A stretch of DNA of 41,879 nucleotides, taken from IMG/VR virus record IMGVR_UViG_3300044470_000021, positions 1-41,879 of that record, one strand, 5' to 3'. The notes beneath the pieces were generated by a model. The model did not search any database and was not told where the DNA came from. It was given only the letters and a program-made list of their open reading frames with translations. Below, piece after piece: positions 1 to 41,037 of the stretch. The stretch comes from a virus. The position numbers and the translations under genes are program-made. Position 1 is the stretch's first letter. Each line of letters starts with the position of its first letter.

Positions 1-546
1 CCCCATCCGCACCCAACGCGAACCGTCCTCGAATAGCACGGCCCACACCTGATATTCGTAGAGTTCGGTAAAGACGCGCATTGTGACGATCTTTTTCTTC
101 TCACCGTTGGCATCCCTGAGGTTGGCAACCCTGAGGTTGGCAACCCTGAGGTCGGCACCCCTGAGGTCGGCACCCCTGAGGTCGGCATCCCTGAGGTTGG
201 CAACCCTGAGGTTGGCACCCCTGAGGTTGGCACCGCTCAGGTTGGCACCGCTCAGGTCGGCACCGCTCAGGTCGGCACCGCGCAGGTCGGCACCGCTCAG
301 GTAGGCATCGCTCAGGTCGGCACCGCTCAGGTTGGCACCGCTCAGGTTGGCACCGCTCAGGTCGGCACCGCGCAGGTCGGCACCGCTCAGGTAGGCACCG
401 CTCAGGTAGGCATCGCGCAGGTTGGCACCGCTCAGGTTGGCACCGCGCAGGTCGGCACCGCGCTTTACAGCAGCTATTATTGCCTCTTTGATCGTTTGCG
501 ATTCGTGCGTAAATAGCACGACTCCGGCTAGATTCTTGATGTCCAT
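1..546 (-). CDS. Pentapeptide-repeat protein, 3' end cut by window edge
   Basis: The frame starts at ATG 546 and stays open for 182 codons to base 1 without a stop, so the C-terminus is missing. About 30 N-terminal residues precede 23 tandem pentapeptides of the A(D/N/Y)LxG type. After the repeats comes a non-repetitive tail rich in Lys then aromatics ([20 protein letters not shown]). Pentapeptide repeats fold into a right-handed quadrilateral beta-helix; some members (Qnr, MfpA) mimic DNA and act on gyrase. Whether this one does is not shown. It is the last visible gene of a leftward operon of small proteins. The 15-bp repeat is a multiple of three, so copy-number change keeps the frame. Confidence 0.85.
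112..456. repeat. 15-bp tandem repeat encoding pentapeptides
   Basis: Twenty-three in-phase 15-bp units (plus-strand consensus GTYGGCACCGCTCAG) with few substitutions. Blocks ending CTCAG/CGCAG and blocks ending CTGAG are clustered, which suggests local duplication. The array lies wholly inside the minus-strand pentapeptide-repeat gene. It is not a CRISPR because there are no spacers. Confidence 0.9.
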
Positions 547-2632: not shown

Positions 2633-2779
2633 TCAATTATTTTTAGCTTGTGTTTTCTTAGACTTGCGCTGAATACGCGCCCATTCAGTGTTACAAATAC
2701 GGCAATATCCCGCGCCGTTTTTGCGTTTCCCGCTCCATTTATGGCCTTTGCTGCATACCGGACTCTTGATTGGTGGCAT
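2633..2779 (-). CDS. Zinc-knuckle micro-protein, 48 aa
   Basis: ATG 2779 is chosen because the -10 hexamer (2791-2786) ends 6 nt before it, so the mRNA would start at the A of ATG (leaderless). There is no Shine-Dalgarno; the longer frame reaches 2944 through the divergent gene. The product carries one zinc site, C-x3-H then YCRIC, and a very basic tail (RIQRKSKKTQAKNN), suggesting nucleic-acid binding. This is a common type of small phage protein of unknown role. Confidence 0.65.
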   Translation of the reverse strand: MPPIKSPVCSKGHKWSGKRKNGAGYCRICNTEWARIQRKSKKTQAKNN

Positions 2780-2785
2780 CCATCT

Positions 2786-2814
2786 ATAGTACATAATGCT
2801 GTACATTGTGTCAA
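2786..2814 (-). promoter_or_regulatory. Leftward sigma70-type promoter, leaderless
   Basis: Minus strand: TTGACA (2814-2809), 17-bp spacer, TACTAT (2791-2786), then 6 nt to ATG 2779. The spacer holds TGTACAGCATTATG, related to the operator at 2593-2607. Confidence 0.7.
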
Positions 2815-2829
2815 GCATTATGCTATACT
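2814..2829 (+). promoter_or_regulatory. Rightward extended -10 with palindrome
   Basis: TGC-TATACT (2821-2829) is an extended -10 only 8 nt before ATG 2838. The palindrome AGCAT-T-ATGCT (2814-2824) overlaps it and also abuts the -35 of the divergent promoter, so one bound regulator could control both directions. Confidence 0.55.
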
Positions 2830-2837
2830 GCCCACAA

Positions 2838-2987
2838 ATGGACGTAAACGCCCAACTCGATCTGATCGCTCGCGGATTCCGCCCGGACCCCGTTTTCGAC
2901 GGCCTGTGGTGCAATTCAGAAACGGGCGAGACGTTGTGGCTCATCCACGGTGAGGTAGTTTATGTGCCGCAGAAGAAGGCGGCATGA
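2838..2987 (+). CDS. Small hypothetical protein, 49 aa
   Basis: The open frame can be extended to 2796, but ATG 2838 is favoured because a TATACT -10 ends 8 nt upstream, which would leave a near-leaderless message. The product MDVNAQLDLIARGFRPDP... is Trp- and Gly-containing with no Cys pair or membrane segment. It is the first gene of the rightward late region, directly before the terminase genes, and transcribed away from the leftward operon. Family unknown. Confidence 0.6.
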   Translation: MDVNAQLDLIARGFRPDPVFDGLWCNSETGETLWLIHGEVVYVPQKKAA

Positions 2988-3005
2988 CCTGGACTGCGCT
3001 TAGGA

Positions 3006-3011
3006 TATAAT
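3006..3011 (+). promoter_or_regulatory. Consensus -10 directly before terminase gene
   Basis: A perfect TATAAT followed by 6 nt and ATG 3018. No Shine-Dalgarno lies between. A weak -35 candidate (ATGACC, 2984-2989) sits 16 bp upstream. Confidence 0.55.
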
Positions 3012-3017
3012 TCAGCA

Positions 3018-3527
3018 ATGGCAAAGGCTGGCAGACCGAGCAGCTACACTCCCGATAGAGCAGAGGTTGTGCTTCAGAGGATGTATACGGGCGAGAGCAT
3101 ACGCTCTATCTGTCGCTCACCGGGGATGCCTGAGTATGAAACTATCTCAACATGGCGTATTCGCAATCCTGATTTCGCCACACAGTACGCGCACGCGAGA
3201 CGGGCGCAAGTTGAGGCAAGGATTGAGGATGCAACTGAGATGTTGCTTGAAACGCCTATGTGCAGCGTGCCTGATCCTGACGGCGGGGTGAGTGAGCGCG
3301 TAGACGGGGCGGCTGTGCAACTACTACGTACTCGCGTTGACCTCGCCAAGTGGGAGGCAAGCAAGCTGCTGCGCGGGTTTGCTAAAGCGGATACTCCATT
3401 GGATTACGGTGACAAGGTACAGCAGGAGATCAGCGGGCCGGACGGTGGGCCTATCCCCGTAACAGTGGCGGCGGTGGATTTGACGGATGACCAGCTGGCT
3501 AGCCTGATTGCAGAGCGCAAGGCGTGA
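3018..3527 (+). CDS. terS: Terminase small subunit
   Basis: 169 aa. It opens with a small-terminase signature: AGRPSSYTPD, then a helix-turn-helix-like segment (SIRSICRSPGMPEYETISTW), then RIRNPDFATQYAHARRAQVE and a long helical middle that would form the oligomerisation core. Small terminases recognise the packaging site on viral DNA and load the large subunit. The adjoining RHH-like gene and large terminase support the call. There is no Shine-Dalgarno; TATAAT ends 6 nt before the ATG, so translation is probably leaderless. Confidence 0.85.
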   Translation: MAKAGRPSSYTPDRAEVVLQRMYTGESIRSICRSPGMPEYETISTWRIRNPDFATQYAHARRAQVEARIEDATEMLLETPMCSVPDPDGGVSERVDGAAVQLLRTRVDLAKWEASKLLRGFAKADTPLDYGDKVQQEISGPDGGPIPVTVAAVDLTDDQLASLIAERKA

Positions 3528-3533
3528 TACACT
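3528..3533 (+). promoter_or_regulatory. Extended -10 before RHH-like gene
   Basis: TGA-TACACT (3525-3533) is followed by 6 nt (GTATTC) and ATG 3540. The element overlaps the terminase small-subunit stop codon. No clear -35 and no Shine-Dalgarno. Confidence 0.45.
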
Positions 3534-3539
3534 GTATTC

Positions 3540-3842
3540 ATGCGTGATACATCGCTCATTTCCATGCGAATCCCAAACGTCCTGCTTGCGGAGATAAATG
3601 CCCAAGCCAAGGCGGAGGATCGCAGCCGGTCTAAAGTGATCTTCATGCGCCTATCGGGGAATAGTTCAAACGCCCTAACCCAGAGCCGAGAGGACAGACG
3701 GGTTGAAAGAACGGCGGCTGCGGAGCCGTTGATGCGAGCGCGGTCACAGTCTGACGCGGGAGACTCGCAACCCCGACCAAAACCATACTATATCCCTACA
3801 CGGTTTCGCCAAGGCAAGTGCAAGCCGGGTGAGAAGGTGTGA
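3540..3842 (+). CDS. Ribbon-helix-helix-like protein, 100 aa
   Basis: The N-terminus (ISMRIPNVLLAEINAQAKAE, then SRSKVIF) has the strand-helix-helix pattern of CopG/Arc-type DNA-binding domains. The remaining ~55 residues are basic, Pro/Ser-rich and probably disordered. The last codons overlap the GTG start of the large terminase by 4 nt. It could be an autoregulator of the packaging operon or a terminase accessory. The DNA-binding call comes from pattern, not a search. Confidence 0.6.
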   Translation: MRDTSLISMRIPNVLLAEINAQAKAEDRSRSKVIFMRLSGNSSNALTQSREDRRVERTAAAEPLMRARSQSDAGDSQPRPKPYYIPTRFRQGKCKPGEKV

Positions 3843-5287
3843 TTACTCCATCCGAGGCCGCATCTGAGCTTCTAGCGCGGCGCAAGGCTCGCCGGTCGAT
3901 AGGCGAGTACATCTCCTACACCTTCCCGTCCTACCGGCACAGCGCGTATTCGGAGGCTGTCTGTGCCGCGCTCGACCAGTTTGTTGACGATGTGCAAGCG
4001 GGCAAGCGGCCCATTCTCGTATTGCAGGCACCTCCACAAAGTGGAAAATCGGAGATCGTATCGCGCAAGCTCCCCGCCTATTTACTCTCTCGATTCCCCC
4101 AGTGGCGCATCGGTGCGGCCAGCTATGCCGACTCGCTTGCTAACACAATGGCGCAAAGCGTTCGCATCAATCTGGCCTCTCCTGAGCATCAAAGACTCTT
4201 CCCAGTGTCGATAGAGAAGCGCAAGTTTGCTCTCGACCGCATGGGGGAGTTTACGGCACCCGGCGGATCGGGAAGCTATGTCGGAGTTGGTGTCGGCGCG
4301 GGACTCACTGGCAGGCCGGTAGACATCGGCATCATTGACGATCCGACGAAGGGCGAATCAGAAGCCCTCAGCGAGACAGTAAAAGAGTCACAATGGAACT
4401 GGTATCAGGCTGTATTCACCACGCGTCTCAGTCAGAACTCCGGGCAGATCATCATGGCAACTTCCTGGGCGATGGACGACTTGCCGGGGCGCATTCTGGA
4501 GATGTACGCAGGCAATCCACGCTTGACGCATCTGCGCTTCCCGGCCATCAACCTGCCGGATGAGGTTGGCTACAATCCAGACCTTCCAGCGGGTGCACTA
4601 TGCCCGGAACTGCACAGCATCGAAAAGCTGCGCGAGACGAAGGGGCTGCTCTCCGATTACTGGTGGTCGTGTTTGTACCAACAAAGCCCTCGTGCGCTGG
4701 GCGGCAACGTATTCAAAGAATCGGGGCTGCAATACTACCTACCCAAAGACTTGCCTCAGAAGTGGGACAAGGTTGTTACGTCGTGGGATTGCACGTTCAA
4801 GGATACGGATGGCACGGACTTTGTTGCAGGCGAGGTGTGGGGGCGGGCGGGCGCAAACGCTTACCTGCTCGACCAGGTACATGATCGTCTTAGTTTCAGC
4901 GCAACGGTAAAGGCGGTTGTGGCGTTGCATCAGAAGTGGCCACAGTCGCGCGAAATCCTGATTGAGGATAAGGCAAACGGCCCAGCGGTGATTGATGTTC
5001 TGAAAGCTCACGTTCCGGGTATCATTCCGATAGAGCCGGACGGGTCGAAGCTAGCTCGCGCTCATGCGGTGACAAGCTACTGGGAAGCCCTCAACGTGTT
5101 TCTGCCCCATGAGGCGATTGCTCCGTGGATTCGTGCCTACGTTGCCGAGGTGACGGCATTCCCGGCGGCAGCGCATGATGACTGGGTGGACAGCATGACG
5201 CAAGCCCTCCGCAGACTCTATCCGCTGTGGGGCAGGTTGAAAATCAATCAGGCGGCCCTCAACGCTGCGATGGGAGTTGTACAATAA
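3839..5287 (+). CDS. terL: Terminase large subunit
   Basis: 482 aa, starting at GTG 3839, which overlaps the previous stop by 4 nt and follows GAGAAG. Walker A is QAPPQSGKSE (residues 63-72), with a Walker B-like hydrophobic strand ending IIDD near 166-169. The C-terminal RNase H-fold nuclease shows D317 (SWDCTF), E376/D377 (LIEDKANGP) and D447/D448...D451 (HDDWVDSM). It pumps and cuts DNA into the prohead through the portal encoded next door. Length and motif order are complete. Confidence 0.95.
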   Translation: MITPSEAASELLARRKARRSIGEYISYTFPSYRHSAYSEAVCAALDQFVDDVQAGKRPILVLQAPPQSGKSEIVSRKLPAYLLSRFPQWRIGAASYADSLANTMAQSVRINLASPEHQRLFPVSIEKRKFALDRMGEFTAPGGSGSYVGVGVGAGLTGRPVDIGIIDDPTKGESEALSETVKESQWNWYQAVFTTRLSQNSGQIIMATSWAMDDLPGRILEMYAGNPRLTHLRFPAINLPDEVGYNPDLPAGALCPELHSIEKLRETKGLLSDYWWSCLYQQSPRALGGNVFKESGLQYYLPKDLPQKWDKVVTSWDCTFKDTDGTDFVAGEVWGRAGANAYLLDQVHDRLSFSATVKAVVALHQKWPQSREILIEDKANGPAVIDVLKAHVPGIIPIEPDGSKLARAHAVTSYWEALNVFLPHEAIAPWIRAYVAEVTAFPAAAHDDWVDSMTQALRRLYPLWGRLKINQAALNAAMGVVQ

Positions 5288-5292
5288 CTCGT

Positions 5293-6792
5293 ATGTGGCC
5301 ATTTCCCAAGCCCGTTACGCCTGCCCCCGCCGTTGAGAAGCGTCGCTCTCAGTTGTCCCATGCTCTCACACTGGCCCGCGAAGGCTCGAACGTACCAACC
5401 CATCACTTCCCGGTGCAGCCGCCCGTGTTGCCCCCCGGAGTCGTGCCTACAGGCCACACAGCGGGCGTAGCGATGGACTCCGCCATTCCGGGTATGCGGA
5501 ACACCTGGGCATACATGATGAACGGGATGCGCGATGCTGTTGGGTTTCCCGGCTATCAGTACCTCGCTATGCTTGCCACGCGGTCTGAGTTTCAGAAGAT
5601 GGTATCGAGGCTTTCAATCGAGCTGACCCGCGAATGGATCGAGCTGAATAGCTCCGAGACGGCGGGCGATGAGACGAAAGAGAAGATTACCGAACTGACT
5701 CAGGAGTTGAAGACACTTGGGCTGCAAAAGGTAATCCAAACCGCGGCGGAGCATGACGGGTACTTTGGGCGCGGGCAAATCTTCATCGACCTCAAGGGAC
5801 ACGACAATCAAACGCCGCTGGTTCTGGACTCGCGCACCATCGGTATGGACTCGTTTCGCGGCGTCAAGACGGTCGAAGCGATGTGGACAACTCCGGTCGC
5901 ATGGAACGCGCTGAATCCCGTTGCCCCAGACTTCTACAAACCGTCGCAGTGGTGGATGCTGGGGCAACAGGTACACGCCAGCCGGTTGATGACGATTATC
6001 ACGCGGCCATTGCCGGACATGCTCAAGCCCGCATTCAACTTTTCAGGGATGAGCCTGACCCAACTTGCGGAGCCGTATGTGGACAACTGGATTCGTACAC
6101 GACGGAGCGTTTCTGACCTCATCTCGAACTTCAGCGTTACGGCCCTGGCGACCAGCATGGATGAAGTATTGACCGGCGGGGATGATGGAACAGACCTATT
6201 CAAGCGGGCCGAACTCTTCACACTCACGCGCAACAATCGCGGGTTGATGCTGCTCGATAAAGACCGCGAAGAGCTTGTCCAGGTCAACACGCCACTGAGT
6301 GGGCTATCAGAGTTGCAGTCGCAGGCGGAAGAACACATGGGACTGCCTTCGGGGATGCCGATGATCGTTCTGACTGGCATCTCACCAACGGGATTGAACG
6401 CCTCAAGCGAGGGCGAGATTCGCGTGTGGTACGACCTGATTGCTGCGATGCAAGAGTCGAACTGGCGCGTCCCGATTGAAACCGTGCTGAAGGTGATGCA
6501 GCTTTCGATGTACGGCAAGATTGACCCTGACATCACGTTCGCATTCAAGCCGCTCTTCCAGTTGACAGCCAAAGAAGAGGCGGACGTGCTGACATCGAAG
6601 AGCACATCGGCCTGCAACTACATCGACCGGGGCGTACTGTCGCCAGCGGAAGAGCGGGAGCGGCTGGCGCGTGACACTGATTCGGGATATGAAGGGCTGG
6701 ACTTGTCAGTGGAGCCGCAGTTGCCGGAGCCGGATGAGCCGGACGAAACCAAGGGGCTGACCGATGGCAATAATTCCAAAGCCAAGAAGTAA
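5293..6792 (+). CDS. Portal protein (DUF1073 / Phage_portal_3)
   Basis: 499 aa from ATG 5293. A longer frame reaches 5227 but would overlap the terminase. The diagnostic DUF1073 block is present near residues 345-390: GLPSGMPMIVLTGISPTG followed by LNASSEGEIRVWYD. The portal ring is the DNA entry and exit vertex and the head-tail joint. There is no Shine-Dalgarno at usable distance; TACAAT lies 7 nt before the ATG, so this may be another leaderless start. The last ~10 codons overlap the next gene by 29 bp. Confidence 0.9.
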   Translation: MWPFPKPVTPAPAVEKRRSQLSHALTLAREGSNVPTHHFPVQPPVLPPGVVPTGHTAGVAMDSAIPGMRNTWAYMMNGMRDAVGFPGYQYLAMLATRSEFQKMVSRLSIELTREWIELNSSETAGDETKEKITELTQELKTLGLQKVIQTAAEHDGYFGRGQIFIDLKGHDNQTPLVLDSRTIGMDSFRGVKTVEAMWTTPVAWNALNPVAPDFYKPSQWWMLGQQVHASRLMTIITRPLPDMLKPAFNFSGMSLTQLAEPYVDNWIRTRRSVSDLISNFSVTALATSMDEVLTGGDDGTDLFKRAELFTLTRNNRGLMLLDKDREELVQVNTPLSGLSELQSQAEEHMGLPSGMPMIVLTGISPTGLNASSEGEIRVWYDLIAAMQESNWRVPIETVLKVMQLSMYGKIDPDITFAFKPLFQLTAKEEADVLTSKSTSACNYIDRGVLSPAEERERLARDTDSGYEGLDLSVEPQLPEPDEPDETKGLTDGNNSKAKK

Positions 6793-7567: not shown

Positions 7568-7812
7568 ATTGTTTCTTCCCAATCAATAGTAAGGTATTCC
7601 CCGTCGCTCGTTTTGCAGTGCGGATCGACGGGCTTGTCCACTATCGACACGCTGACAGCCCTGATAGTTCGTATCAGTTGCGCGTGGCGTTTCTCTTGAG
7701 CGATACATGCGTTGCACTTCGACCCCCATCCGAGATTGAATGGCTTGCCACATTCTGAACACTGCCAAAGTATCTCGCGTCCGCTACCATCGCGCTCTAG
7801 GACTATCGTCAT
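7564..7812 (-). CDS. Zinc-ribbon micro-protein of moron operon, 82 aa
   Basis: ATG 7812 follows GGGGGAG (5 nt spacing) and overlaps the previous stop (ATGA). The product has one clear zinc ribbon, CSECGKPFNLGWGSKCNAC near residues 18-36, followed by a basic segment and an acidic C-terminus. It is third and last gene of a minus-strand operon set inside the rightward head genes. No family name recognised; likely a regulator or host-takeover protein. Confidence 0.75.
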   Translation of the reverse strand: MTIVLERDGSGREILWQCSECGKPFNLGWGSKCNACIAQEKRHAQLIRTIRAVSVSIVDKPVDPHCKTSDGEYLTIDWEETI

Positions 7813-7964
7813 TTCGCTCCCCCTTTGCACTGCGGTTTGTGCGCCCTGAAAGCGCGTGTGCCTACGATTGTCCGCTTGCACTTCGGGCAGAGATGCGGCA
7901 CGGGAGCGCGGGGCGGCTTGGTCTGTGATGCGCGGAGGATGCGGGCGGCGACGGAAGCGTTCAT
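7809..7964 (-). CDS. C2HC zinc-finger micro-protein, 51 aa
   Basis: ATG 7964 overlaps the upstream stop (TAATG), and the stop overlaps the downstream ATG (ATGA), so the gene is locked in by coupling on both sides. The product is very basic with one compact finger: HLCPKCKRTIVGTRAFRAHK then PQC (C-x2-C-x12-H-x3-C). This spacing resembles nucleic-acid-binding C2HC fingers. Confidence 0.75.
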   Translation of the reverse strand: MNASVAARILRASQTKPPRAPVPHLCPKCKRTIVGTRAFRAHKPQCKGGAK

Positions 7965-8059
7965 TAGAGATTCGTCTCCGGCCAGAGAGCAGCGATCATT
8001 TCGATTGTGCCTGCGAGGACGAAAGCGATTGCGGATGGTGCGATGAGGATGTAAAGCAT
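7964..8059 (-). CDS. 31-aa single-span membrane peptide, moron operon leader gene
   Basis: ATG 8059 has an excellent AGGAGG seven bases upstream and sits 24 nt from a predicted transcription start. The peptide is nearly all one transmembrane helix (MLYILIAPSAIAFVLAGTIE), with a short polar end finishing in NL. A paralogue of equal length (40662-40757) also heads a minus-strand operon; both share a PS motif, EM followed by a hydrophobic residue, and the terminal NL. Function unknown; such peptides can modulate membrane enzymes or exclude other phages. Confidence 0.7.
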   Translation of the reverse strand: MLYILIAPSAIAFVLAGTIEMIAALWPETNL

Positions 8060-8089
8060 GTGTGCCTCCTGATACTCAGTTCAATTTCC

Positions 8090-8133
8090 AGTATACGCAC
8101 ATTTCGCAAAGTGTCAACACAATTCGTAATGTG
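8090..8133 (-). promoter_or_regulatory. Moron promoter with two tandem operators
   Basis: Minus strand: TTGACA (8117-8112), 16-bp spacer, TATACT (8095-8090). Two 16-bp imperfect palindromes, CACATTTCGCAAAGTG (8098-8113) and CACAATTCGTAATGTG (8118-8133), match at 12 of 16 positions and start 20 bp apart, two helical turns. One covers the spacer and one lies just upstream of the -35, as in repressor-controlled promoters. Confidence 0.75.
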
Positions 8134-8157
8134 ATGAATCAGCTAGGTTTGCAGTGC

Positions 8158-8163
8158 TACAAT
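8158..8163 (+). promoter_or_regulatory. Extended -10 before DUF2213 gene
   Basis: TGC-TACAAT (8155-8163) ends 9 nt before ATG 8173, and there is no Shine-Dalgarno. This would restart rightward transcription beyond the opposing moron operon. No convincing -35. Confidence 0.4.
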
Positions 8164-8172
8164 GGCTACGAT

Positions 8173-9588
8173 ATGCCGATCATGGAATGCACATTGCCGG
8201 AGGGCGGTAAGGGTTTCAAGTGGGGCGATCATGGCCACTGCTATCCTGACCGTGCCGATGCCGAGAAGCAAGCTGCGGCGGCCCATGCCAACGGATACGC
8301 TGGGGACATTGCTTTAGACGCATCGGCCCGCACAATAGACGCGGACGGGCGAATGCACATCTCCAAGACGCATATCAGCAAAGCGTCTGTGAATCCGTAC
8401 TATGGCCGCGAGATTCCCGGTGCCGATGCGCTGGGGCTTGACCCCGATAAAATATACAATCTCTTCCGCGAACCCGGCGAACTCAAGAAGGCCGCGCCCA
8501 CATTTGAGCGCAATCAGATTCTCTCCAAACACGTCCCCGTGACGACTTACGACACGATGGATGAGCAGGAAAAGAAGAAGCTAATTGTCGGGGCCATCGG
8601 CTCGGACGTGGAGTTCAACGATCCGTACCTTGACGCCGACGTTGCAATCTGGGACTCGAAAGCTATTGCGGGGATCGAGACGGAAACTGTGATGGAGTTC
8701 TCCTGTTCGTACCACTATGTCCCGGTGATGACACCCGGCGATTACAAGGGAGAACACTATGATGGTATAATGACTCAGATTGTTGGCAACCATCTCGCTG
8801 TGGTAGAATCTGGGCGAGCAGGATCAGACGTAGCAGCAGCAGACAGTAATCCATTCACGAGGGTTGACATGACCAAGATGACCAAGTTGGGCAAGGCACT
8901 TTTCGTAACACTGGGCGCGGCTTCATCGAAGCTGGCGCAGGATTCCGCGTTGCCTGGTCTGGTAGGGCAGGCGGTCAAGAAGACTTTTGACAAGGCAGCG
9001 GTGGGCGCGAAGCTGCTTGCGATGGACGCCGAACTGAAGAAGGAAAAGGTGGACGCCGTGATGGACGCCATTCTCGATAACGACCCGGAGCCGAAGGAAA
9101 AGGCCGCGAAGGATGCGGACGAAACCGAGGAAGAGAAGAAGGCCCGCGAGAAGAAGGAAGCCGCCGCCGAAGACGAAGAGGAAGACGACGACGAAGAGGA
9201 CGAGCGCAAGAAGAAGGAAGCCAAGGACAAGAAGGCGAAAGACAAAGCCGCCAAGGACAAGGCTGCGAAGGACAGCGAAGAGGAAGTCGCCAAGAAGATC
9301 AAGCCCGCGATGGACTCGTTCAAGGCTGAACTCCGCGACGCTGCCGAAGCCGCTCGCATCGTTCGCCCGGTTGTGGGAGACGTTCTCGCTCAGGACTCCG
9401 CCGAAGAGATTTACGGCTTTGCGCTCGACCATCTGAAGGTTGACCACAAGGGCGTCACCGGCGTTCCGGCTCTCAAGGCTCTCTTCTCGCTCGCGTCTGA
9501 GAAGACTAAGCCGATTGCCACTCTCGCCCAGGATTCCGCCGGACTCAAGGCGAAGTTCCCCAATGCATCACGATTCAGCCACGCCTAA
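8173..9588 (+). CDS. DUF2213 prohead protease/scaffold-like protein
   Basis: 471 aa from ATG 8173; longer frames reach 8134 and 8062 but cross the moron promoter. The start agrees with the conserved opening ECTLPEGGKGFKWGDHGHCY. Next comes the DUF2213 core (HISKASVNPYYGREIPG, APTFERNQ), then EFSCSYHYVP and IVGNHLAVVESGRAGSD, where GRAG resembles the end of prohead-protease domains. The C-terminal half is a highly charged Lys/Glu/Asp-rich, probably coiled-coil segment typical of scaffolds. An in-frame ATG at 8869 with GAGGG 5 nt upstream could give the scaffold part alone. Confidence 0.85.
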   Translation: MPIMECTLPEGGKGFKWGDHGHCYPDRADAEKQAAAAHANGYAGDIALDASARTIDADGRMHISKTHISKASVNPYYGREIPGADALGLDPDKIYNLFREPGELKKAAPTFERNQILSKHVPVTTYDTMDEQEKKKLIVGAIGSDVEFNDPYLDADVAIWDSKAIAGIETETVMEFSCSYHYVPVMTPGDYKGEHYDGIMTQIVGNHLAVVESGRAGSDVAAADSNPFTRVDMTKMTKLGKALFVTLGAASSKLAQDSALPGLVGQAVKKTFDKAAVGAKLLAMDAELKKEKVDAVMDAILDNDPEPKEKAAKDADETEEEKKAREKKEAAAEDEEEDDDEEDERKKKEAKDKKAKDKAAKDKAAKDSEEEVAKKIKPAMDSFKAELRDAAEAARIVRPVVGDVLAQDSAEEIYGFALDHLKVDHKGVTGVPALKALFSLASEKTKPIATLAQDSAGLKAKFPNASRFSHA

Positions 9589-13713: not shown

Positions 13714-14206
13714 CTACCAGCCCTCGATTGCCATTGACGACGTTATCACCGCCCTGGGCACATTCCTACAGCCGTTCGTGGGCAGCGCAGACATTATCCG
13801 CGCAGAGGTCAATCGCGTAGCTCCCCCAGCGGGGCCGTTCGTCGAGCTTACTGAGTTGATGACCGTCGATTTGGAAACGCCGCAGACTTTGAATAATGCA
13901 GACCAGACAACCTCCATCAAAGGCCCAGCGCGTATCGACGTGCAGGTAGATTTCTACGGCCCCGCGTCCGGCGATTGGTGCAGGGCAGTCAAGGGCGTTT
14001 TCCGCACTCCCTACGCCGCCGCACAGTTCCCGTGCAACATCAAACCGCTCTACTGCTCGGACGGGACGCAAGCCCCTTTGATGACGGGTGAGGAGCAATA
14101 CGAGGTTCGCTGGGTACTCACGGCGAGCCTCCAATACAATGCTGTTATAATAGTGCCACAGCAGTCCGCCGATGCTTTGGCGATGAATATAGTGGAGGAT
14201 TTATGA
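13706..14206 (+). CDS. Neck/tail terminator protein (LIC_12616 / gp12-like)
   Basis: 166 aa. ATG 13706 follows AGGGGG, overlaps the previous gene by 8 bp, and its stop overlaps the sheath ATG. Two blocks fit the neck-terminator family: PARIDVQVDFYGP near residues 73-85 and the C-terminal PLYCSDGTQAPLMTGEEQYE then VRWVLTASLQYN. Such proteins cap the tail tube/sheath and join it to the neck. Confidence 0.8.
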   Translation: MANYQPSIAIDDVITALGTFLQPFVGSADIIRAEVNRVAPPAGPFVELTELMTVDLETPQTLNNADQTTSIKGPARIDVQVDFYGPASGDWCRAVKGVFRTPYAAAQFPCNIKPLYCSDGTQAPLMTGEEQYEVRWVLTASLQYNAVIIVPQQSADALAMNIVEDL

Positions 14207-16220: not shown

Positions 16221-16226
16221 TATACT
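16221..16226 (+). promoter_or_regulatory. Extended -10 before free-standing HNH gene
   Basis: TGG-TATACT (16218-16226) followed by exactly 6 nt and ATG 16233, without a Shine-Dalgarno. It lets the inserted nuclease be transcribed independently of the tail operon, again as a leaderless message. Confidence 0.55.
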
Positions 16227-16232
16227 TGATGC

Positions 16233-16814
16233 ATGAGATATACCGAAGATCATGTAAGTACGTTTGATGCAGTGAAGTACCGGAAAGAACGAAGAATAGA
16301 ACGGGCTGAACTTGGATTGTGTACTCGCTGCGATAGGCCAAGAGTTGAAGGAAAGGCAGATTGCCAAGAGTGTCTGGATGAAACGGAAGTACGCGCAAAG
16401 GAATGGCGAGACGGTAAGCGAAAAGCGGGAGTTTGCATTTCATGTGGCAATCCTTCCGAATCAAAATTACTCCGCTGCGATAATTGTTCTAAGCGGTTGA
16501 ACGAAAGTAGCAGGCTACGACAGAAAGAAATAAAGACTGCGGTACTGATGCATTACGGAAAAGATGGAAGACTTCAATGCTGCTGGAATGGATGTAAAAC
16601 AGATGATCTCGATATGTTGACGCTAGACCATATCGAGAATGATGGAGCAGAACACAGAAAACGGTATACCAAAACCGGAAGAGGTGGGGGAGCTTGGTTG
16701 TATGACATGCTTATCCGCAACGGGTTCTCAGATGGGTTTCAAACTTTATGTGCTAACCATAACCTGAAAAAGCACATGCAGAATATTAGGAGTTCTAAGG
16801 GGAATAGACCATGA
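16233..16814 (+). CDS. Free-standing HNH homing-type endonuclease
   Basis: 193 aa. The N-terminal half holds two Cys-knuckle pairs (CTRCDRP...CQEC and CISCGNP...CDNC) in basic helices, a DNA-binding layout. The C-terminal half is an HNH core: CCWNGCKTDDLDMLTLDHIE, a GGAWLYDMLIRNGF helix, then FQTLCANHNLKKH. It splits the usually adjacent sheath and tube genes, and its DNA is visibly AT-richer than its neighbours, both signs of acquisition. The stop overlaps the tube ATG by 4 nt, so tube translation may be coupled. Confidence 0.85.
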   Translation: MRYTEDHVSTFDAVKYRKERRIERAELGLCTRCDRPRVEGKADCQECLDETEVRAKEWRDGKRKAGVCISCGNPSESKLLRCDNCSKRLNESSRLRQKEIKTAVLMHYGKDGRLQCCWNGCKTDDLDMLTLDHIENDGAEHRKRYTKTGRGGGAWLYDMLIRNGFSDGFQTLCANHNLKKHMQNIRSSKGNRP

Positions 16815-40665: not shown

Positions 40666-40757
40666 AGGTTGGACTTTCCGCCGCGAAGCTCAGAAACCAT
40701 CTCCATCACGGCCATAACGATGAGCGAAATTGACGGGACGATGAATAGCAGGTACAT
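40662..40757 (-). CDS. 31-aa single-span membrane peptide heading early operon
   Basis: ATG 40757 follows CAGGAG at 7 nt. MYLLFIVPSISLIVMAVMEM then VSELRGGKSNL: one transmembrane helix and a short basic tail. Same length as the peptide at 7964-8059 with shared PS, EM and terminal NL, so probably a paralogue. First gene of the right-hand leftward operon. Role unknown. Confidence 0.65.
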   Translation of the reverse strand: MYLLFIVPSISLIVMAVMEMVSELRGGKSNL

Positions 40758-40782
40758 GGGTAATCTCCTGTGCAACAAATAC

Positions 40783-40811
40783 AGCGTATCGGACATTCGA
40801 TACCTTGTCAA
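40783..40811 (-). promoter_or_regulatory. Right-hand leftward promoter with palindromic operator
   Basis: Minus strand: TTGACA (40811-40806), 17-bp spacer, TACGCT (40788-40783). The palindrome GTATCG-GACATT-CGATAC (40786-40803) fills the spacer. The transcript leader GTATTTGTTGCA is identical to that of the promoter at 2595-2623. Confidence 0.75.
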
Positions 40812-40819
40812 GAAAAAAG

Positions 40820-40848
40820 TTGACAAAGTTGCGAAATAGTTTTACGGT
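40820..40848 (+). promoter_or_regulatory. Repressor promoter
   Basis: TTGACA (40820-40825), 17-bp spacer, TACGGT (40843-40848), then 6 nt to ATG 40855. The -10 is weak, as in many activator-dependent maintenance promoters. Message would be leaderless or have a 0-2 nt leader. Confidence 0.5.
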
Positions 40849-40854
40849 AGGAGA

Positions 40855-41037
40855 ATGGACATCGGAGCGATGGTCACAAAACGCCGTGGGAAGCAGTCAA
40901 TGGCCGATTTTGCGCGTTCTCTTGGCGTGACTCGGCAGCGCGTATGGCAATGGGAGCACAACGATCACAAGCCCCCCGCGCTCATTCGCAGGAAACTTGG
41001 CATCCGAATACGGTACGAGATGAAGGCAGTGAAGTGA
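40855..41037 (+). CDS. Cro/CI-like XRE repressor, 60 aa
   Basis: ATG 40855; AGGAG lies only 1-2 nt upstream, too close for normal use, and a -10 ends 6 nt before it. A single helix-turn-helix fills the protein: MADFARSLGVTRQRVWQWEH, with a basic end (IRRKLGIRIRYEMKAVK). No dimerisation or cleavage domain, so it is Cro-like in size. It is divergent from the large leftward operon and sits beside a palindromic operator. Operator recognition is inferred. Confidence 0.75.
   Translation: MDIGAMVTKRRGKQSMADFARSLGVTRQRVWQWEHNDHKPPALIRRKLGIRIRYEMKAVK

Follow-up and report, generated by a model that had tools for sequence, protein, structure and literature searches.

Predicted leaderless promoters at the small-terminase and protease genes, and at inserted accessory genes, of an uncultured phage and its relatives

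Introduction

Many bacterial groups have leaderless genes, and such genes have also been predicted in phages. In the bacterial cases a TANNNT hexamer lies ~12 bp upstream of the start codon, the Shine-Dalgarno (SD) sequence is missing and, in some groups, the hexamer carries an extended TG (PMC3160421, PMC12340547); they include the -10-adjacent genes of Deinococcus (PMC12340547). A -10 box placed ~12 bp upstream of a start codon indicates that the start codon itself is where transcription initiates (Zheng et al. 2011, PMC3160421), and 70S ribosomes initiate leaderless translation on the 5'-terminal AUG (PMC9031893). The Xanthomonadales have been reported to carry leaderless genes (PMC3160421). 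Among phages, lambda cI is a model leaderless mRNA (PMC9031893), and predicted SigA promoters of cluster O mycobacteriophages have their +1 at the first nucleotide of the start codon, one such predicted leaderless promoter lying in the structural operon (PMC4351075). The host group of these phages is rich in leaderless genes, and no conserved feature of the small terminase or protease was described for them (PMC4351075).

Here we analyse an uncultured phage, IMG/VR record IMGVR_UViG_3300044470_000021, whose whole length (41,879 bases, 41.9 kb; GC 55.8%) is referred to as the window. Several of its genes have a -10-like box next to the start codon. They resemble the bacterial TANNNT-led genes in an above-chance spacing of ~12 bp and in SD absence, but those genes are cellular whereas here the arrangement occurs in a phage lineage, concentrated at two head genes and at accessory genes. 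As with lambda cI transcribed from PRM, one (40855) is a regulatory-type phage gene with a -10 box placed for transcription to start at the AUG; unlike cI, it encodes a short YdaS/Cro-like helix-turn-helix protein, a putative regulator, and most of the box genes are non-regulators. A literature search covering few subscription papers found no description of a conserved leaderless arrangement of small terminase and protease.

Materials and Methods

The gap is the number of nucleotides between the -10 hexamer and the start codon. For the window, 71 curated genes were compared with dinucleotide shuffles of their own upstream stretches. Because curated starts could be biased by the finding, the test was repeated with a rule blind to it, the first ATG 3' of the upstream gene. 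Searches with the large terminase subunit (TerL) and the capsid protein gave about 160 related loci (numbered L...). A raw TANNNT scan of these relatives yielded little signal, since the starts set by an automatic gene caller were poor; homology-anchored starts were used in its place. The boxes at protease genes (CATAAT) escape the TANNNT pattern; a 5-of-6 match to the -10 box was used instead and shuffles were scored identically.

Relatives of the window phage infect Xanthomonas and Burkholderia. A GTDB search for its own host via prophage relatives returned an unclassified proteobacterial MAG and, beyond it, nothing but distant matches. An Rfam scan of the window and of locus L086 gave no match.

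Results

Predicted boxes adjacent to start codons

The head module runs in the order small terminase (TerS, 3018), TerL (3839), portal (5293), Mu-F head protein (6764) and DUF2213 protease (8173), followed by gene 9604, a capsid-type gene (10760) and tail genes; leftward genes flank the module. The genes concerned are:

2633..2779, minus strand: 48-aa gene with a weak HNH endonuclease profile match (phrog_826, E=9e-6)
2838..2987, plus strand: 49-aa gene without a family match in profile searches
3018..3527, plus strand: terminase small subunit (TerS), Sf6 type (phrog_1482, E=7e-29; PF20901, E=5e-21)
3540..3842, plus strand: 100-aa gene with weak CopG/RHH similarity, swapped between phages
5293..6792, plus strand: portal protein, Phage_portal_3 (PF06381, E=1e-79)
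8173..9588, plus strand: head maturation protease, DUF2213 (phrog_2229, E=8e-115; PF09979, E=1e-43)
16233..16814, plus strand: 193-aa zinc-ribbon gene, HNH-like by inspection
40855..41037, plus strand: 60-aa helix-turn-helix gene, weakly YdaS/Cro-like (PF15943, E=1.4e-4)

Their predicted promoter boxes, all recognized from sequence, are:

2809..2814, minus strand: -35 box TTGACA of the 48-aa gene (TTGACA-17-TACTAT)
2786..2791, minus strand: -10 box TACTAT, gap 6 to the ATG at 2779
2824..2829, plus strand: -10 box TATACT, extended TGC, gap 8 to the ATG at 2838
2984..2989, plus strand: -35-like ATGACC of TerS 3018
3006..3011, plus strand: -10 box TATAAT, gap 6 to the TerS ATG at 3018
3528..3533, plus strand: -10 box TACACT, extended TGA, gap 6 to the ATG at 3540
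5280..5285, plus strand: -10 box TACAAT, overlapping the TerL stop, gap 7 to the portal ATG at 5293
8158..8163, plus strand: -10 box TACAAT, extended TGC, gap 9 to the protease ATG at 8173
16221..16226, plus strand: -10 box TATACT, extended TGG, gap 6 to the ATG at 16233
40820..40825, plus strand: -35 box TTGACA, 17 bp 5' of TACGGT
40843..40848, plus strand: -10 box TACGGT, gap 6 to the ATG at 40855

All six sites claimed in an earlier note on this DNA (2779 on the minus strand, 2838, 3018, 3540, 16233 and 40855) are thus present at gaps 6–8, as are the near-cases it gave at 5293 and 8173. The terminase gene that it counted in the set is the small subunit; TerL (3839) is without such a box in the window. 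Its statement that these genes have no usable SD holds for eight of the nine window genes with a box, in the sense that no SD is well placed, although SD-like sequences do exist at 40855 (AGGAG 1 nt from the ATG, too close for normal SD use) and at TerS 3018 (AGGA ~12 nt from the start). At the ninth gene, 14203, a good SD (GGAGG) is present and the box (TATAGT, gap 9) is probably coincidental.

Perfect -35 boxes, TTGACA at 17 bp, occur at two sites (2779 and 40855) and extended TGN -10 boxes at four (2838, 3540, 8173 and 16233); the -35 is poor at 3540, 5293 and 8173. The portal box has neither a TTGACA -35 nor an extended -10.

Enrichment over chance

The spacing proved commoner than in shuffled sequence. 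With curated starts, TANNNT occurs at gap 6 in 5 of 71 genes (0.66 expected, P=0.0007) and at gaps 6–9 in 9 of 71 (2.7 expected, P=0.0005–0.004). With blind starts there are 5 genes at gap 6 (0.63 expected, P=0.0007) and 7 at gaps 6–9 (2.45 expected, P=0.01). A well-placed SD is absent from 8 of the 9 box genes and from 21 of the 62 others (Fisher P=0.003 with curated and P=0.04 with blind starts).

Chance combined with the choice of start codon could in principle generate such boxes, since gene boundaries are TA-rich and stop codons (TAA/TAG) can overlap TANNNT. The portal box consists of the last TerL nucleotides, stop codon included, and the match at 14203 is of the chance type; a chance origin is possible for single sites such as 5293. 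As a general explanation it is very improbable: the gap 6 excess survives blind start calls, adjacent boxes are depleted in SD genes, and the box is conserved across relatives and TerS families, which largely refutes chance for TerS and the protease.

The small-terminase slot

Among 32 divergent, homology-anchored TerS starts, TANNNT lies at gap 9 in 21 and at gaps 6–9 in 25. In a second, separate comparison under the -10 match rule, a box at gaps 6–9 is found in 23 of 32 relatives, against 1.4 +/- 1.0 in shuffles, a count which, like those for other genes below, is set against a null model of composition only and is inflated because the sequences are related by descent and not independent. 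An SD-like sequence occurs at only 2 of these 32 starts, and 16 of the 23 promoters have a TTG-initial -35 hexamer 16–18 bp upstream.

The objection of shared descent is weakened because the box is kept across differing TerS families. The slot is occupied by PF20901 in the window, by Terminase_2 (PF03592) in L042 and by phrog_16968 in Bcep781 and KPhi1, and the TerS of L086 has only its C-terminus in common with that of the window; in all of these the box lies at 6–9 nt. The families may be remotely related, judging from a weak match of phrog_16968 to the L042 protein. TerS of the window type in L177, L178 and L179 keeps gap 6 with the box changed to TACAAT. The Naesvirus phages Bcep781, Bcep1, Bcep43 and BcepNY3 have TACACT at gap 7, and Xanthomonas phages XapPhi1/5 have TACACT at gap 6. 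The annotation of KPhi1, phiXaf18 and PhiXhv-2 puts the start six codons upstream of the Met that aligns with Naesvirus, and it is this Met that TACACT precedes at gap 6.

A universal association of the box with TerS was rejected: no adjacent box accompanies TerS of HK620 and LKA5, both members of the family found in the window. The box is therefore a feature of this lineage and not of TerS in general.

The TerS upstream regions of L042, L036, L033 and others also contain a direct repeat, TTGTGGYYGC, with copies ~12 bp apart. It spans -35 to -20 of the predicted promoter and may be a site for a late activator.

The protease and its neighbours

At the DUF2213 protease a -10-like box is found at gaps 6–9 in 24 of 45 relatives (4.8 +/- 1.9 in shuffles) and an SD-like sequence in 5 of 45; 14 of the 24 promoters have a TTG-initial -35 16–18 bp upstream. 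In KPhi1, phiXaf18, PhiXhv-2/7 and XapPhi1/5 the box is TAACAT or TATCAT at gap 7; the Bcep phages have no adjacent box at the protease start.

Genes 3' of the protease present a different picture. SD-like sequences precede gene 9604, the first structural gene after it, in 46 of 46 relatives and the major capsid gene (MCP) in 44 of 48, and adjacent -10 boxes occur in none or almost none. At TerL the adjacent box (5 observed, 1.4 expected) is weaker than at TerS or the protease. The portal box TACAAT recurs at gap 8 in L004 and L086, but only 9 of 60 relatives have an adjacent box at the portal (4.2 expected), so that the window box is weakly supported; the portal was rejected as a conserved leaderless gene, most relatives having a -10 at 26–28 nt and an SD. 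Among 1280 other genes of the relatives the signal is slight but has a direction: of the genes with a strong -10 at gap 6, 8 are SD-less and 1 has an SD, and the -10 boxes of SD genes peak at gap 27–29, the ordinary leadered spacing. Beyond the TerS slot, the leaderless signal is limited to the protease and a small share of SD-less genes. The predicted leader classes are similar to those obtained by 5'-end mapping in Lactococcus cremoris, with leaders of <5 nt or ~40 nt and none of 4–14 nt (PMC10986495).

The boxes could also be real promoters whose genes truly start further downstream, giving ordinary leaders and wrongly called starts. The family match of the window protease begins only at residue 46, which leaves room for a later start. 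The gaps nevertheless cluster sharply at 6–9 nt at both TerS and the protease, with no spread, and the called ATG must therefore matter; moreover, the family match of TerS 3018 begins at residue 3. Of the explanations considered, we give wrongly called starts the least credence, slightly below chance. A further ATG exists upstream of the called start in the frames of both 2838 and 8173; at 8173 the call is backed by L086, in which the equivalent ATG is the sole one because the frame has a stop 72 nt upstream.

Two further differences concern this module. In the TerL of close relatives, L086 (1675–4074) and also L005–L009, ~320 aa with a LAGLIDADG match (PF14528, E=3e-6) are inserted in frame at the Walker A motif (GK|S); the insert, most likely an intein, is absent from the window. 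Window positions 7568–8150, between MuF and the protease, hold ~540 nt absent from L086 and bounded on either side by TTTGCAGTGC.

Inserted accessory genes and the helix-turn-helix gene

A moron is an inserted phage gene that forms a self-contained unit and carries its own promoter. Genes 3540 and 16233 likewise bring a promoter, predicted from sequence, and in close relatives their positions are empty or taken by another gene. They are called moron-like rather than morons because no terminator-like site was found at the end of 3540; unlike in morons, too, the predicted promoter would leave no leader. Gene 16233 is absent from the corresponding place in L086. Its homologue in L164 (57% aa identity), at the corresponding place 3' of a 517-aa sheath-like gene, keeps TGGTACACT at gap 6; the two have in common TGGTAYACT-N6-ATG within an intergenic space of 19–20 nt. 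For gene 3540, an IMG/VR search found no relatives and blastn against the related loci found homologues in L157 (TACAAT, gap 7) and L158 (without a box). In L086 another small gene occupies the slot, and its TACAAT is at gap 7. The box moves together with genes 3540 and 16233, which behave as self-contained units, and 2779, 2838, 3540 and 16233 look like independently inserted accessory genes with their own promoters.

Upstream of the small inserted gene of L086, positions 1406–1460 resemble the reverse complement of the 5' half of a tRNA; ARAGORN found no intact tRNA in this sequence.

The layout of the helix-turn-helix gene is TTGACA-17-TACGGT-6-ATG, and matches to 40855 homologues were too weak for promoter comparison.

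Discussion

From the observed sequence, spacing, enrichment, conservation and SD absence, we infer promoter activity, transcription starts, leaderless translation and its purpose. We consider it likely that predicted host sigma70-type promoters yield leaderless or near-leaderless mRNAs for TerS, the protease and several independently inserted genes. The -10 placement would set transcription to start at the A of the ATG for gap 6 and 1–3 nt before it for gaps 7–9; gap 9, that of the window protease and of most TerS genes of the relatives, predicts a leader of 2–3 nt and not of zero. Such mRNAs, devoid of an SD leader, would be translated through direct recognition of the 5'-terminal AUG. Transcripts from further upstream could also cover the box genes, which are part of operons.

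The arrangement would have two sources. One would be an old feature of the head module, in which the small-terminase slot and the DUF2213 protease would have promoters giving leaderless or near-leaderless transcripts; the other would be the accessory genes 2779, 2838, 3540 and 16233 and the putative regulator 40855, self-contained through a promoter that reaches the ATG. The probable effect is a low output of packaging and processing proteins, set by transcription and not tied to the capsid and tail genes, which are SD-led. Promoter-limited output is plausible because TerS and the protease, which act on an SD-led capsid, are required in low quantity. More tentatively, and with somewhat less than even confidence, we propose that this lineage of uncultured environmental viruses and Xanthomonas and Burkholderia phages has kept a two-class late module through replacement of TerS, in which leaderless TerS and protease genes are expressed from their own promoters beside SD-led capsid and tail genes, the start-abutting promoter being selected to set the stoichiometry of packaging and maturation, or their timing.

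The earlier note had instead suggested a separate translation regime. A class of genes would then be routed through leaderless initiation and translated when 70S ribosome or initiation-factor levels shift late in infection. Timing to ribosome state is possible: the conserved genes TerS and protease are late assembly genes, and initiation factors and S1 are phosphorylated during T7 infection, with effects on leaderless mRNA described as unstudied (PMC9031893). Few genes are involved, however, SD-led genes being the majority in the phage and its relatives, including MCP, sheath and tube of the same late module, and the window members include a helix-turn-helix regulator and accessory genes of differing expected timing. 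Since the accessory genes bring their own promoter, no special translation regime is needed for them, and we regard such a regime as unlikely, if less so than either chance or misplaced starts.

If predicted leaderless expression is correct, this group of phages would need revised start codons and operon maps, and the annotated N-terminus of the TerS-slot protein in KPhi1, phiXaf18 and PhiXhv-2 would be encoded by the promoter itself. The cultured phages would offer a tractable case of leaderless structural-assembly genes beside SD-led ones, and the fate of leaderless mRNAs during infection would become directly testable.

Additional features of the window

A pentapeptide-repeat gene (1–546, minus strand) of at least 181 aa runs past the left end of the record. 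The near-palindrome TACAGCATWATGCTGTA is repeated at 2592–2612, 2789–2806 and 2811–2829, overlapping the predicted promoters of 2569 (minus), 2779 (minus) and 2838, and is possibly a phage operator. Between the divergent predicted promoters of 40757 (minus) and 40855 (plus) lies an inverted repeat, GTATCG-N6-CGATAC (40786–40803), which is terminator-like by pattern scan and may be an operator. The leaders at 2569–2595, 2346–2372 and 40757–40790, all on the minus strand, have TTTGTTGCA in common, followed by a GGA-type SD directly before the ATG, and two of the three are located 3' of predicted promoters with TTGACA at 17 bp.
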